From: an uncultured Ulvibacter sp.
GTDB lineage: Bacteria; Bacteroidota; Bacteroidia; Flavobacteriales; Flavobacteriaceae
Assembly (NCBI GenBank): GCA_943789105.1
Contig: CALSSW010000002.1
Span: 164,950-228,949, forward strand
Direction of reading: 5' to 3'
Length of the DNA: 64,000 bases
Both the position numbers and the translations under genes were made by a program. This document shows positions 16,901-25,833 of the stretch, one piece after another. Under the pieces are notes generated by a model. The model did no database searches. It was not told the DNA's origin and saw nothing but the letters and a program-made list of their open reading frames with translations. How positions within the stretch are numbered: position 1 is the first letter of the stretch; each line of letters starts with the position of its first letter.

Positions 16901-18313
16901 CTAAAACTTAAAACTTAACCCAGTGTACACCCCAAGGTAATAGGGCTTAAAACTCACAGAGGAGTCTGTATATGGATTTAATTGGTATTTAAACATTGGC
17001 TCTACATTAAGTCTAAACTTGCTTGACATTTTGTAATGCAGTCCAAGCCCTATGTTGCTAGCAAAGCTGATATCAGATAGGTTATTGGCAGACCCAAGAA
17101 CCTCATTGTAGCTGCCTGCGGTTACCGAAACCTCGTTATTTCCTAAAAGTAGTGTGCTAATACCTCCAATGACATCAAGGCCAAAAGCGCTGTCAAAAAG
17201 CGTGTAGCTTAATTCTAAAGGGACTTCGTAATAACTAATGTTTTGGTTTATAAAAGCATCACCGTTTGTTGATTTTGGTGTTATATCACCAAAAGTTCCG
17301 TCTTGGTTTTGACTAGAAAATGTCCCCAAATCTTGAGCTATAACTACAACCCCCTCACTGGCATAATCTATGGTTTTTAACGCCAAGGAGACTGGGCCGT
17401 CACCAAGTTCTATACCGCCAGTGCTATAGCTTAGCGCCACATTACTAATACCAGAGCGGATTTTTAATCTATCACTAAGGGCATAGCGCACCCCGATACC
17501 GTAGCTAATATTTACATCACCGCTTTGGGAGTTGTCTGCAAAACTAGCATCTATAGAAGACCCTTGGCTTAATGTGTTGTAATAAACGGGAGCGATGTTG
17601 GGCGCAATTTCCCAAAGATTGTATTTCGAAGATTTCTTGGCTACCGCCTCTTTAGACTCAAGCTGTTTTTGTTCCTTTATGGCATCAAAAATAGATGTTT
17701 TTTCGGGCGCGTTGGTGTTTGGTTTTTCAGCGGCAACTATTAAAGCGGTGCTGTTAGAAGGCGCTAAAGTCTTGGTGTCTATTATTTCTTTATTTTCTGA
17801 AATAACAGCGGATTTTTCTGGTTTTACAACTGCTACGCTCGAGTTTTTTGTAGGCATAACAAGCTCTTTTTTGATAGCTAATTTTACAGCCGATTTTTCT
17901 GGTTTATTTAAGACAATAATTTCGTTTTTTGACCTCTTAGGATCATTGACTTCTACTTTTGGTGTTATGGTCTGGTTTTGTGTGTCTTTATTTGTTGAAG
18001 TAACCAGCAGCTCGTCTTGCGGCAACCCTATTGTTTTGTCAATATTTGGGCCTGTGTTAGGGACCTGTTCTATATTTTGTTGCTGCTCAACAATGCTATT
18101 GTTTTTGGGGTCATTTAACAAGCTCCCTATAGAAAAGATAAATGCCAAGCTAGCCGCAACACCTGCCGCTCTCCACCAGATAGCAATAACACGATCTTTC
18201 TTATCTTTTTCTAAACGCGCCTGTATCTTATTCCAAACATGAGAAGCCGGAGCCGTCTGGTGATTTGCGAATCGTTCATTAAAGAGTTGGTCTATGTTCT
18301 TTTTTTGTTTCAT
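16901..18313 (-). CDS. Anti-sigma-like inner-membrane protein fused to an outer-membrane beta-barrel
   Basis: This 470-aa protein has three parts. Residues 1-41 are cytosolic (FNERFANHQTAPASHVWNKI, like the start of many Bacteroidota anti-sigma proteins). Residues 42-66 form one hydrophobic helix (RVIAIWWRAAGVAASLAFIF). Residues 70-230 are a low-complexity Lys/Pro/Thr linker containing KPEKSAV twice. Residues 231-470 alternate like an outer-membrane beta-barrel and end in the aromatic GLSFKF typical of barrel proteins. The gene follows an ECF sigma gene by 34 bp. I infer that it senses the envelope and controls that sigma factor. A single chain with both an inner-membrane helix and a barrel is topologically odd. 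Confidence 0.72.
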   Translation of the reverse strand: MKQKKNIDQLFNERFANHQTAPASHVWNKIQARLEKDKKDRVIAIWWRAAGVAASLAFIFSIGSLLNDPKNNSIVEQQQNIEQVPNTGPNIDKTIGLPQDELLVTSTNKDTQNQTITPKVEVNDPKRSKNEIIVLNKPEKSAVKLAIKKELVMPTKNSSVAVVKPEKSAVISENKEIIDTKTLAPSNSTALIVAAEKPNTNAPEKTSIFDAIKEQKQLESKEAVAKKSSKYNLWEIAPNIAPVYYNTLSQGSSIDASFADNSQSGDVNISYGIGVRYALSDRLKIRSGISNVALSYSTGGIELGDGPVSLALKTIDYASEGVVVIAQDLGTFSSQNQDGTFGDITPKSTNGDAFINQNISYYEVPLELSYTLFDSAFGLDVIGGISTLLLGNNEVSVTAGSYNEVLGSANNLSDISFASNIGLGLHYKMSSKFRLNVEPMFKYQLNPYTDSSVSFKPYYLGVYTGLSFKF

Positions 18314-18347
18314 TATTATGCTGTTTTTATCAGCAACGATTTATATA

Positions 18348-18920
18348 CTAGAGGATACTTTTGTTATAGTTGTCAATTTTTGTTTTTAAAATCCCTCTTG
18401 CTCTTGCTAAATTAGATTTTGAGGTTCCGTCACTAATCCCTAATAAGCTTCCAATTTCTTTATGAGAATATCCGTCCATAACATACATGGTAAATACCAG
18501 TCTGTATCTCTGGGGCAACTCTTGAATAATGCTAAGTAAATAATCAAGGGGCAGGCCATTGTCAATAATCTCTTGGTTTGCCGTATCCTCGATTTGCGCT
18601 TCATCATCTATAGCAAACACCTTTTGTTTTCTATATTTTTGAAGCACTGTATTTACAGTAATTCTTTTTATCCAACCCTCAAAAGAGCCCTTTTCTTTAA
18701 ACTGCTCAGCCTTATTAAAAATAGTAATAAAAGCATCTTGCAGGCTGTCTTCTGCCTCTACCTTGTTGGGAGAGTAGCGTAAACAAATTGAGAACAACAC
18801 ACCGCTATAGCGCTTATAGAGCTCTGCTTGTGCCTTAGCGTCCTTCTTTTTACAGCCTTGTATGAGTTGGTCTAAAGTCAAATGTAGTTGCCTTGGTTTG
18901 TTAGTAATTGTTTTACACAA
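18348..18920 (-). CDS. ECF-type RNA polymerase sigma factor
   Basis: This 190-aa protein has sigma region 2 (LYKRYSGVLFSICLRYSPNKVEAEDSLQDAFITIF, about 35-69), a linker, and region 4 (LPQRYRLVFTMYVMDGYSHKEIGSLLGISDGTSKSNLARAR, about 132-172) with a clear helix-turn-helix. It would direct core RNA polymerase to a regulon that cannot be named from here. The downstream gene encodes a membrane protein of anti-sigma type, 34 bp away, so they form a sigma/anti-sigma pair. The start Met is the ORF-track start; a Met further in is not needed for region 2. Confidence 0.92.
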   Translation of the reverse strand: MCKTITNKPRQLHLTLDQLIQGCKKKDAKAQAELYKRYSGVLFSICLRYSPNKVEAEDSLQDAFITIFNKAEQFKEKGSFEGWIKRITVNTVLQKYRKQKVFAIDDEAQIEDTANQEIIDNGLPLDYLLSIIQELPQRYRLVFTMYVMDGYSHKEIGSLLGISDGTSKSNLARARGILKTKIDNYNKSIL

Positions 18921-20205: not shown

Positions 20206-20325
20206 AATGCTTTTTTTTATGTCTTATTTTGATGTTAAAAATAAACCTTCGCTTTACTTCAAACAATCAAATGCTTGCTTGTTTTTTAAAGGTTGTGAAC
20301 AGGTGTTTTATTTATTTAATGTCCA

Positions 20326-20356
20326 CAAATATACAAAAATTTGGAAATATTCCAAA
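20326..20356 (-). promoter_or_regulatory. recA promoter
   Basis: On the minus strand TTTG (plus CAAA 20353-20356) and TATATTTG (plus 20326-20333) are separated by exactly 19 nt, the best form of the Bacteroidota promoter in this window. The leader to the recA ATG is about 115 nt. Confidence 0.75.
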
Positions 20357-20371
20357 TTTTGGAAGAATTCC
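20336..20371. promoter_or_regulatory. Candidate operator in the recA promoter (inverted repeat plus half-copy)
   Basis: AAAATTTGGAA-ATA-TTCCAAATTTT (20336-20360) is a perfect 11-bp inverted repeat lying between and over the -33 and -7 elements, a classic repressor position. A second copy of the core, TTGGAA-GAA-TTCC (20359-20371), starts 18 bp further upstream of recA. The protein that binds is not identified. Confidence 0.6.
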
Positions 20372-20414: not shown

Positions 20415-20444
20415 TTGCTTTGACAGTCTTTTTTTTTACTTTTG
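20415..20444 (+). promoter_or_regulatory. trhO promoter
   Basis: TTG (20415-20417), 19 nt, then TACTTTTG (20437-20444), 44 bp before ATG 20489. The 283-bp recA-trhO gap holds these two promoters and the recA operator, and no gene. Confidence 0.65.
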
Positions 20445-20488: not shown

Positions 20489-21520
20489 ATGCAACTGTAC
20501 AATACACTAAGTGCCAAAGAAAGAGCCGCTCTTTTAGAACAAGCTGGAGATGCCCGCTTAACTCTTTCCTTTTACCAATATGCCCATATCGGTAATCCAG
20601 AACTTTTTAGAAACCATTTATTTTTAGCCTGGGATTCCTTAGGTGTTTTGGGTCGCATATATGTAGCTAAAGAGGGTATAAATGCACAGCTTTCTGTACC
20701 GGGAAAAAATTTTAGTGAATTTAAAGCTGTGTTGGATGGGATTTATTTTCTGAAAAATTGTAGGTTAAACATTGCGGTGGAGCAAGATTTAAAGTCTTTT
20801 TTAAAGCTAAAAGTAAAGGTGCGCCACAAAATTGTTGCAGATGGGCTTAATGACGCCACCTTTGATGTTACCAATAAAGGAGTACATGTAGATGCAATAA
20901 CTTTTAACGAGCTAATAGAAGATCCAGATACAGTTTTGGTAGACATGCGCAACCACTATGAAAGCGAAATAGGACACTTTAAAAATGCGCTAACCCCAGA
21001 TGTAGACACCTTTAGAGACTCACTAGATGTCATAGAACAAGACTTACAGGATCATAAAGAAGATAAACAATTGGTGATGTATTGCACCGGAGGAATTCGC
21101 TGTGAAAAAGCCAGCGCTTACTACAAGCACAAAGGTTTTAAAAATGTATTTCAGTTGGAAGGCGGAATCATAGAATACACCCGACAGGTGAAAGCTCAAG
21201 GGCTAGAAAATAAATTTTTAGGGAAAAATTTTGTTTTCGATCACAGGCGAAGTGAACGTATTAGCGAGGATGTTATTTCTAACTGTCATCAATGTGGAAG
21301 CCCCTTTGACAGCCATACCAACTGTGCTAATGAGGGGTGTCACCTGTTGTTTATTCAGTGCGATGTTTGCGCAGAAAAAATGGAGCATACCTGTAGTGAT
21401 GAGTGTCATCAAATTATTAAGCTACCCTTTGAGCAACAGAAAGAACTTCGCAAAGGAACTCATGCAAGCAATAAGATATTTAAAAAGGGAAGATCTCAGA
21501 AGCTTCAATTTAAGAAGTAG
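20489..21520 (+). CDS. trhO: tRNA uridine(34) hydroxylase TrhO (YceA), rhodanese domain
   Basis: This 343-aa protein is of typical length for the family. An N-terminal acylphosphatase-like domain (FYQYAHIGNPELFRNHLF, GRIYVAKEGINAQLSVP) is followed by a rhodanese domain with DMRNHYESEIGHFKNA and the active-site loop MYCTGGIRCEKASAYYKHKGF (catalytic Cys). A Cys/His-rich C-terminus (CHQCGSPFDSHTNCANEGC, then CDVCAEKMEHTCSDEC) probably binds zinc. It hydroxylates U34 of certain tRNAs in an oxygen-dependent way. A promoter with ideal spacing lies upstream. Confidence 0.93.
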   Translation: MQLYNTLSAKERAALLEQAGDARLTLSFYQYAHIGNPELFRNHLFLAWDSLGVLGRIYVAKEGINAQLSVPGKNFSEFKAVLDGIYFLKNCRLNIAVEQDLKSFLKLKVKVRHKIVADGLNDATFDVTNKGVHVDAITFNELIEDPDTVLVDMRNHYESEIGHFKNALTPDVDTFRDSLDVIEQDLQDHKEDKQLVMYCTGGIRCEKASAYYKHKGFKNVFQLEGGIIEYTRQVKAQGLENKFLGKNFVFDHRRSERISEDVISNCHQCGSPFDSHTNCANEGCHLLFIQCDVCAEKMEHTCSDECHQIIKLPFEQQKELRKGTHASNKIFKKGRSQKLQFKK

Positions 21521-23517: not shown

Positions 23518-25833
23518 ATGGCTCAAAAGAAAACCACCAGAAAAAAAAAGAAAACCAAAAAAAAGAGTAGTATCATTCGCTTGTTTTGGCTTTTGTTATT
23601 GGGCGCTGTAGCTGCTGTTGCCTTATTGTTTTTGTTGGCCTCATTTGGTGTATTTGGAAGCCTTCCAGACGAAACAAGTCTTGAAAATCCAGAAAAAAAC
23701 CTCGCTACAGAAATTATCACTACAGACGGAAAGGTTATAGGCAAGTTTTACAAAGAAAACCGAACTCCCGTGGCATACCAGGAGTTGCCAGAGCATCTTA
23801 AAAACGCACTTTTAGCCACCGAAGACATTCGTTTTTATGACCATAGCGGTATCGATCTTCGAGGAACACTTCGTGCAGCTTTTTATCTAGGCAGCAAAGG
23901 AGGGGCCAGTACTATTTCTCAGCAACTAGCAAAGCAATTATTTACAGACCAGGCCTCAAGAAATAAATTTCAACGAGGTATACAAAAAGTTAAAGAGTGG
24001 ATTATTGCAACACGCTTGGAGAGGCGTTACACTAAAAACGAAATACTAACCATGTATTTTAATGAGTATGATTTTTTAAACCAGGCTATTGGAATAGAAT
24101 CTGCGAGTAATATTTATTTTGACAAACCACCAAGTCAGCTCAATGTAAGCGAATCTGCAATGTTGGTTGGGATGTTTAAAAACTCCTCTTTATACAATCC
24201 TTTAAGAAATCCAGAGGGGGTTAAAAATCGCAGGAACGTTGTTTTGTCTCAAATGCAGAAGTATGATTTTATTTCAAAACAGCTTAAAGATAGCCTGCAG
24301 GCAAGGCCCCTAGAGTTTAAATACACCCCGCAAGGACACGTTGAGGGCTTGGCAACATATTTTAGAGAATATGCACGTGCTTTTATGGGAGATTGGACTA
24401 AAAATAATCCAAAAAGCGACGGAACAAACTTTAACATCTATAGAGATGGATTAAAAGTATACACCACCATAAATGCGAGTATGCAAGGCTATGCAGAAAA
24501 GGCAATGAAAAGCCATATGTCTAACCTTCAAAATGAATTTACCAAGCAAAACAAATACAACAAAACCGCTCCTTTTAGAGATGTAGAGCCCGAGGAAATA
24601 GATAGAATAATAAACAACTCCATACGCAGAAGTGAACGCTATAGGGCTATGACCGCAGAGGGAAAAAGCAAAGAAGAAGTTTTTGAAAGCTTTGATAAAA
24701 AACGAAAGATGCGCATTTTCTCTTGGAAAGGAGATATAGACACTATAATGACACCCAGAGATTCAATTAGATACTATAAAAAATACTTGCAGGGCGCTAT
24801 GATGTCTATGAATCCTCAGACGGGAGAAGTGAAGGCTTATGTAGGAGGGATAGATTACAAACACTTTAAGTATGACATGGTTTCAACAGGTAAAAGGCAA
24901 ATTGGATCCACCTTTAAGCCCTTTGTATATGCCACCGCCATAGATCAAATGCACATGTCTCCTTGCGATACACTACCTAACACACCCTACTGTATTCCTG
25001 CTGGAACTAGAGGGAATATGAATGATTGGTGCCCAAAGAATTCTAGTGATAAATATGGCGGAATGCTATCGCTAACAAAAGCCTTGGCCAATTCTGTAAA
25101 CACAGTTACCGCCAGATTAATAGATCGCGTAGGTCCAGAGCCAGTGATCACATTGGTTGAGAAAATGGGGATAGACACAAAAAATATGTTGCCTGTACCT
25201 TCTCTAGCCCTAGGTACACCAGATGTATCTTTATACGAAATGGTAGGAGCCTACAGTACTTTTGCCAACCAAGGAGTATATGTAAAGCCATCGCTGATTA
25301 CTAGAATTGAAGATAAAAACGGTACGGTTTTATACCAGCACACGCCTCAAACTAAAGACGTTATAAGTAGTGAAACGGCCTATGTTGCTATTAATTTATT
25401 ACAAGGTGTTACAGAGGCTGGCTCTGGTTCTAGACTGCGTCATAAAACAGGTGCTAATAGCGCCTATAAATCTGCGGTAACCGGATATCCTTATGAATTT
25501 AAAAACCCAATAGCCGGTAAAACAGGAACCACTCAAAACAATAGTGATGGTTGGTTTATGGGCATGGTTCCTAATCTTGTTACAGGAGTTTGGGTTGGGG
25601 GTGAGGATCGCTCTGTTCATTTCGAGACAACCATGTATGGGCAAGGAGCTACAATGGCACTGCCTGTTTGGGCCCTGTATATGAAAGATTGTTACAGTGA
25701 TGAGCGTTTAGCAATATCAAAAGAAGAGTTTACAGTCCCGCCAGATCTAACCATTGAGGTAGATTGTGAGAAATGGAAAGCACAAACGGTCCCTAAAGAT
25801 ATAGACCAGGTGCCTGATGAATTTGATTTTTGA
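23518..25833 (+). CDS. Class A penicillin-binding protein (PBP1A type)
   Basis: This 771-aa bifunctional peptidoglycan synthase has a very basic cytosolic start (KKTTRKKKKTKKKSS), one membrane helix (about 22-43), and a GT51 transglycosylase domain with LLATEDIRFYDHSGIDLRGTLRA and GGASTISQQLAKQLF. The transpeptidase domain has the SxxK Ser in GSTFKPFVYA, SVN in ALANSVNTV, and KTGTT in AGKTGTTQNNSDGWF. All catalytic motifs are intact. It builds and crosslinks glycan strands at the outer face of the inner membrane. A strong terminator closes the ricT-gldH-PBP run. Confidence 0.95.
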   Translation: MAQKKTTRKKKKTKKKSSIIRLFWLLLLGAVAAVALLFLLASFGVFGSLPDETSLENPEKNLATEIITTDGKVIGKFYKENRTPVAYQELPEHLKNALLATEDIRFYDHSGIDLRGTLRAAFYLGSKGGASTISQQLAKQLFTDQASRNKFQRGIQKVKEWIIATRLERRYTKNEILTMYFNEYDFLNQAIGIESASNIYFDKPPSQLNVSESAMLVGMFKNSSLYNPLRNPEGVKNRRNVVLSQMQKYDFISKQLKDSLQARPLEFKYTPQGHVEGLATYFREYARAFMGDWTKNNPKSDGTNFNIYRDGLKVYTTINASMQGYAEKAMKSHMSNLQNEFTKQNKYNKTAPFRDVEPEEIDRIINNSIRRSERYRAMTAEGKSKEEVFESFDKKRKMRIFSWKGDIDTIMTPRDSIRYYKKYLQGAMMSMNPQTGEVKAYVGGIDYKHFKYDMVSTGKRQIGSTFKPFVYATAIDQMHMSPCDTLPNTPYCIPAGTRGNMNDWCPKNSSDKYGGMLSLTKALANSVNTVTARLIDRVGPEPVITLVEKMGIDTKNMLPVPSLALGTPDVSLYEMVGAYSTFANQGVYVKPSLITRIEDKNGTVLYQHTPQTKDVISSETAYVAINLLQGVTEAGSGSRLRHKTGANSAYKSAVTGYPYEFKNPIAGKTGTTQNNSDGWFMGMVPNLVTGVWVGGEDRSVHFETTMYGQGATMALPVWALYMKDCYSDERLAISKEEFTVPPDLTIEVDCEKWKAQTVPKDIDQVPDEFDF

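Follow-up and report, generated by a model that had tools for sequence, protein, structure and literature searches.

Genes and features at the recA locus

The window, that is, the whole stretch of 64,000 nucleotides that was analysed, carries recA on its minus strand and, diverging from it, a rhodanese/UPF0176 (TrhO-type) gene, and the region between the two holds a perfect 25-bp palindrome and two operator-like sites, O1 and O2 (Table 1). Upstream of recA the minus strand reads AAGGAATTCTTCCAAAATTTGGAATATTTCCAAATTTTTGTATATTTG, in which a TTTG -33 box is followed, after 19 bp, by a TATATTTG -7 box, and this is a promoter of the Bacteroidetes type. In Flavobacterium psychrophilum, mapped transcription starts place the -7 box TAnnTTTG at -12 to -5 (PMC9723704), and if the same positions are assumed here the recA transcript would begin near 20321. 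Downstream of recA, also on the minus strand (16901-18920), are a sigma-70/ECF-like factor gene (18348-18920) and then a gene for a long membrane-type protein (16901-18313), both named by eye.

Table 1. Coordinates of features at the recA locus (positions in the window) and of the candidate regulator (position in the host assembly).
Feature	Position	Strand	Description and basis
recA, 337 aa	19192-20205	minus	ORF; Pfam RecA PF00154 (E=6.7e-140) and RecA_C
Predicted recA transcription start	20321	minus	placed from the position of the flavobacterial -7 box; 5' UTR about 115 nt
recA -7 box	20326-20333	minus	TATATTTG, reads 20333 to 20326; sequence
recA -33 box	20353-20356	minus	TTTG, 19 bp upstream of the -7 box, within the palindrome; sequence
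Perfect 25-bp palindrome	20336-20360		AAAATTTGGAA-ATA-TTCCAAATTTT; 11-bp arms, 3-bp loop
Operator O1 (candidate)	20341-20355		TTGGAAATATTCCAA; core GGA-N5-TCC (GGA-AATAT-TCC) at 20343-20353, lying about -22 to -32 relative to the predicted start
Operator O2 (candidate)	20359-20371		TTGGAAGAATTCC (TTGGAA-GAA-TTCC); core GGA-N5-TCC (GGA-AGAAT-TCC) at 20361-20371, about -40 to -50
Probable promoter of the TrhO-type gene	20420-20444	plus	TTGACAG, then TACTTTTG at 20437-20444; clear of O1 and O2
Divergent rhodanese/UPF0176 (TrhO-type) gene	20489-21520	plus	Pfam
S24 regulator, 256 aa	G000:C1:217429-218196		HTH_3 PF01381 (E=2.3e-8); Peptidase_S24 PF00717 (E=4.6e-13)

The first-pass annotation of this DNA had described a palindromic site within a recA promoter of the form TTTG-N19-TATATTTG and a second TTGGAA-N3-TTCC core 18 bp further up, and both are present, O2 being spaced 18 bp from O1 on the upstream side relative to recA. 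It had also stated that the palindrome fills the spacer; the spacer is indeed covered, but the palindrome spans the -33 box as well. The TTGGAA-N3-TTCCAA palindrome that it singled out is real, but the relevant core is GGA-N5-TCC, which has been published (PMC8565304).

Palindromy and rarity alone are weak evidence for an operator, because perfect palindromes are common in the window and the loose motif is enriched neither in the window nor in the genome. When the whole window was compared with sequences generated by a dinucleotide model, the exact geometry of the 25-bp palindrome occurred once against 0.07 expected, and perfect 11-bp arms with loops of 0-10 occurred 8 times against 0.5 expected. 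TTGGAA-N3-TTCC with one mismatch allowed was found 8 times in the window, where 7.7 were expected. TTGGAA-N3-TTCCAA has a single occurrence in the 2.1-Mb assembly; GGAA-N3-TTCC has 25 genome-wide and its reversed control 40, and without an excess over this control the frequency of the motif is no argument. The weight of the case lies in conservation and in placement on damage genes.

Candidate regulator and predicted regulon

Sanchez-Osuna et al. (2021) reported that in Bacteroidetes LexA is replaced by CI-like repressors of the S24 family (PMC8565304). A clade of these that occurs mainly in Flavobacteriaceae was shown by EMSA to bind GGA-N5-TCC, and binding is lost when either half is mutated or the spacer is changed; the genes predicted to belong to its regulon include that of the regulator, umuDC, splB, a uracil-DNA glycosylase operon, a GIY-YIG/DnaQ exonuclease gene and, in several species, recA. 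In S. agarivorans, on which the published tests were made, only recA was not induced by mitomycin C (PMC8565304).

A Peptidase_S24 search of the host assembly, which is 83% complete, returned two genes, namely umuD, followed by umuC, and the gene for an HTH_3+S24 protein (Table 1) that has a cleavage-type AAAGY motif, GDSM and VKK. In Pfam this protein has no match to the LexA winged-helix DNA-binding domain and carries HTH_3 instead, and a PDB sequence search gave weak matches to UmuD' and LexA (E about 0.1 and above). Among the 18 orthologue sequences inspected, the Ala-Gly pair (AAAGY in most), the serine of G(D/N)SM and a downstream lysine are shared. Its domains, motif and family distribution point to kinship with the tested repressor WP_075324850.1. 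The search found no further HTH-bearing S24 protein, and since the assembly is 83% complete a second regulator may have been missed.

The O1 15-mer or close variants of it precede this regulator, umuDC and a repair-type exonuclease, a result in favour of the first-pass annotation, which had proposed looking for the site before other damage genes. Three GGA-N5-TCC sites lie in the promoter of the regulator (L092:1134, 1153 and 1176; 19 and 23 bp apart), two lie before umuDC (C4:102988 and 103007; 19 bp apart), and a single site, TTGGATTATTTCC, stands 22 bp upstream of the start of the RNase_T+GIY-YIG (DnaQ/UvrC-like) exonuclease gene (C4:82893; L223:67-1470). In the 2.1-Mb assembly the composite GGA-N5-TCC-N9-TAnnTTT has just two occurrences, one upstream of recA and one upstream of the regulator gene, and in four other genomes of the genus the composite site also precedes the counterpart exonuclease gene. 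The predicted SOS regulon would comprise the repressor, recA, umuDC and the exonuclease.

Most of the remaining motif matches are intragenic and resemble chance occurrences; among them are TTGGAAGCCTTCC at position 23654 of the window, in a penicillin-binding protein gene, and others in long ORFs. GGAATTGTTCC lies 14 bp before a SAM-methyltransferase-like gene (G000:C2:169513, L135), which may be a regulon member or a chance match, and the ORF at C4:198084, a possible member, has a candidate site 81 bp upstream. At the regulator gene (TATATTTG; L092:1196-1209) and at umuD (TATTTTTA; L178:1520-1534) the -7-like box stops 3-4 nt short of the ATG, so that both mRNAs are probably leaderless; leaderless mRNAs make up only 5.5% of those examined in F. 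psychrophilum (PMC9723704).

Conservation and distribution of the recA operator

The first-pass annotation had proposed close relatives as a check on the site, and there the operator is kept: it precedes recA in 10/10 genomes of the genus in which recA was found (it was not found in G001), and most other Flavobacteriaceae have no such site at recA. Within the genus the core is 9 or 10 bp from a -7-like box, which reads TATATTTG, TATCTTTG, TATATTTA, TACTTTAG or TAATTTAG. Alignable DNA upstream of recA is common to G000, G002, G003, G004 and G010. In G005-G009, by comparison with G000, a piece of 30-71 bp with the operator and promoter is the only part upstream of recA that aligns, and this marks the operator as a target of selection. 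Only the GGA-N5-TCC core and its spacing from the -7 box are conserved throughout the genus, and the length of the arms varies. The five nearest genomes and G007 have O2, which is absent or displaced in G005, G006, G008 and G009.

Beyond the genus, a site within 400 bp upstream of recA was found in 4 of 58 other regulator-carrying genera and in 0/25 genomes without a close regulator. Three of the four carriers (G078, G094 and G162) have TTGGA-N5-TCCAA, and the fourth (G102) has a weaker site. When the upstream regions were scored with a matrix derived from the regulator promoters of other genera, the list of carriers was identical and no further site exceeded the 99th percentile of shuffles; by this matrix O1 scores 20.9 bits, the 99.9th percentile of shuffles being 15.2, and O2 is weaker at 13.4 bits. 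A scan of 80 named recA loci found the motif in 3, one of them from the same genus. Two near-identical recA matches in one genome (G014:C7:30900 and G014:C19:13089), each with one internal TAA, may reflect an assembly duplicate or a frame problem.

In the RecA tree the members of the genus, all of which bear the operator, group in a single supported clade (95/81) that lies within a set of regulator-carrying genera lacking it. The regulator tree requires at least four changes of the recA-operator label, one of which arises only because G001, in which recA was not found, was scored as lacking. The simplest reading of these sequences is that the operator was acquired once where the genus began and that a few other lineages gained it separately, though it may instead have been lost repeatedly. 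Most other regulator-carrying genera are without the recA site, and recA appears to have been newly placed under the regulator in this genus.

Operator arrays at regulator genes

At least one site was found within about 420 bp upstream of 69/70 regulator genes, and none upstream of those distant S24 homologues (<35% identity) that could be read. Spacings between neighbouring sites fall at 18-19 or 22-23 bp in 95 of about 117 cases, when the two genomes present in both lists are counted once, and this conserved spacing suggests that neighbouring repressor dimers interact. The distance from a site to a TAnnTTTG box is most often 8-9 bp, with 38 cases compared with 1 when the box is reversed, and a second cluster of gaps at 19-20 bp is on the opposite strand of the same regulator promoters. 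In the roughly 70 regulator promoters (e.g. L155, L258 and L330) the outer site often has beside it, on the other strand, an extra degenerate half-like site with TATTTTTG.

Interpretation and alternatives

From the positions of the sites, the motifs of the regulator, the membership of the regulon and the conservation within the genus, all of them read directly from sequence, O1 and O2 are very probably operators of the Flavobacteriaceae non-canonical LexA, the CI-like HTH and S24 peptidase protein listed in Table 1, which would repress recA until damage occurs. The first-pass annotation had suggested the binding site of a LexA-like damage regulator of this lineage; as to the kind of regulator this is supported, and a name can now be put to it, non-canonical LexA (PMC8565304). 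By analogy with its published relative, the regulator probably keeps recA low until DNA is damaged. Binding, repression, cooperativity and cleavage are here modelled on that relative and on the biochemistry of the S24 family. A repressor dimer on the GGA-N5-TCC of O1 would cover the -33 box and spacer and so exclude the sigma-A holoenzyme, and a second dimer at O2, 18 bp upstream, would strengthen occupancy. Following DNA damage, RecA filaments would promote self-cleavage of the repressor at Ala-Gly, which would free recA, umuDC and the exonuclease gene together with the repressor's own gene.

Three other explanations fit worse. The palindrome could be the operator of a different regulator, such as another S24 paralogue, a member of the CTAA-N5-TTAG clade or a repressor outside the SOS response, and the core is short: bare GGA-N5-TCC turns up by chance in 2.9% of random 400-bp stretches, and the longer TTGGA-N5-TCCAA in 0.05%. 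The O1 15-mer and its close variants, however, stand before the S24 regulator, umuDC and the exonuclease, the assembly yielded one HTH-bearing S24 protein, and no CTAA-N5-TTAG was found within 350 bp upstream of the host recA, so that we regard a different regulator as very unlikely.

An inverted repeat acting as an intrinsic terminator or hairpin instead of an operator would agree with the excess of perfect palindromes in the window (8 against 0.5), which is what terminators would give, but the part that is conserved is the GGA-N5-TCC core with its spacing from the -7 box and not the arms, and the palindrome lies upstream of both predicted starts, so that neither divergent transcript should include it; we consider this reading highly improbable. 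Just as little credence can be given to the site chiefly controlling the TrhO-type gene, even though it occupies the shared intergenic region, 118-136 bp from the start of that gene. The TrhO-type gene has promoter-like sequence of its own about 50 bp beyond O2, O1 is fitted to the recA boxes, and the operator stays with recA in the five members of the genus whose upstream DNA is unrelated. The TrhO-type gene is probably outside the regulon.

With O1 and O2 read as operators of non-canonical LexA, a palindrome that was unexplained has a regulator and a compact predicted SOS regulon, in a flavobacterial lineage of small genomes. A broader proposal is that in Flavobacteriaceae using this repressor recA normally lies outside the damage regulon and was recruited to it several separate times, one of them at the base of this genus, and that the CI-like repressor uses arrays of conserved geometry (18/19 and then 22/23 bp) which imply cooperation between dimers; we judge the chances of this proposal to be about even. 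The failure of mitomycin to induce recA in S. agarivorans (PMC8565304) is compatible with recA often being outside the regulon, and if the proposal is true, recruitment of recA in some lineages could help to explain the lack of a recA response in the only flavobacterium tested. In that case the genus, set beside its neighbours, would offer a natural comparison of SOS responses with and without inducible RecA.

Comparison with known systems

In the canonical LexA/SOS system of E. coli, with the operator CTGT-N8-ACAG, a repressor site overlaps the recA promoter and the repressor gene has several sites. The present system is alike in both respects and differs in its operator and in its DNA-binding domain, which is HTH_3. 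Phage lambda CI combines a CI-type HTH with an S24 peptidase and acts on neighbouring operators arrayed ahead of the repressor gene. The domains and arrays described here are similar, but the spacings are 18/19 and 22/23 bp and the predicted target is a chromosomal repair regulon instead of prophage control. The CTAA-N5-TTAG clade of other Bacteroidetes has the same kind of regulator and the same logic, with recA in its regulon, but a different motif (PMC8565304).

The closest likeness is to the GGA-N5-TCC clade of non-canonical LexA, with which the host shares the motif and its fixed spacer, the HTH_3+S24 regulator, self-regulation (predicted here from the sites), umuDC, the RNase_T/GIY-YIG exonuclease and several sites per promoter (PMC8565304). 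It differs from what is published for that clade in that the dinB-type Y-family polymerase gene (C2:79053) has no site among the matches listed, and in that a strong site, conserved in the genus, lies over the -33 box of recA, whereas recA was uninduced in the published test species (PMC8565304). The 2021 paper mentions multiple sites, and the 18/19 and 22/23-bp spacing was not found stated in the parts consulted. As the system itself is already known (PMC8565304), the host represents a new instance of it with a lineage-specific twist at recA, and the new points are modest ones: the recruitment of recA in particular lineages, nearly all related genera being without the recA site, and the conserved geometry of the operator arrays.
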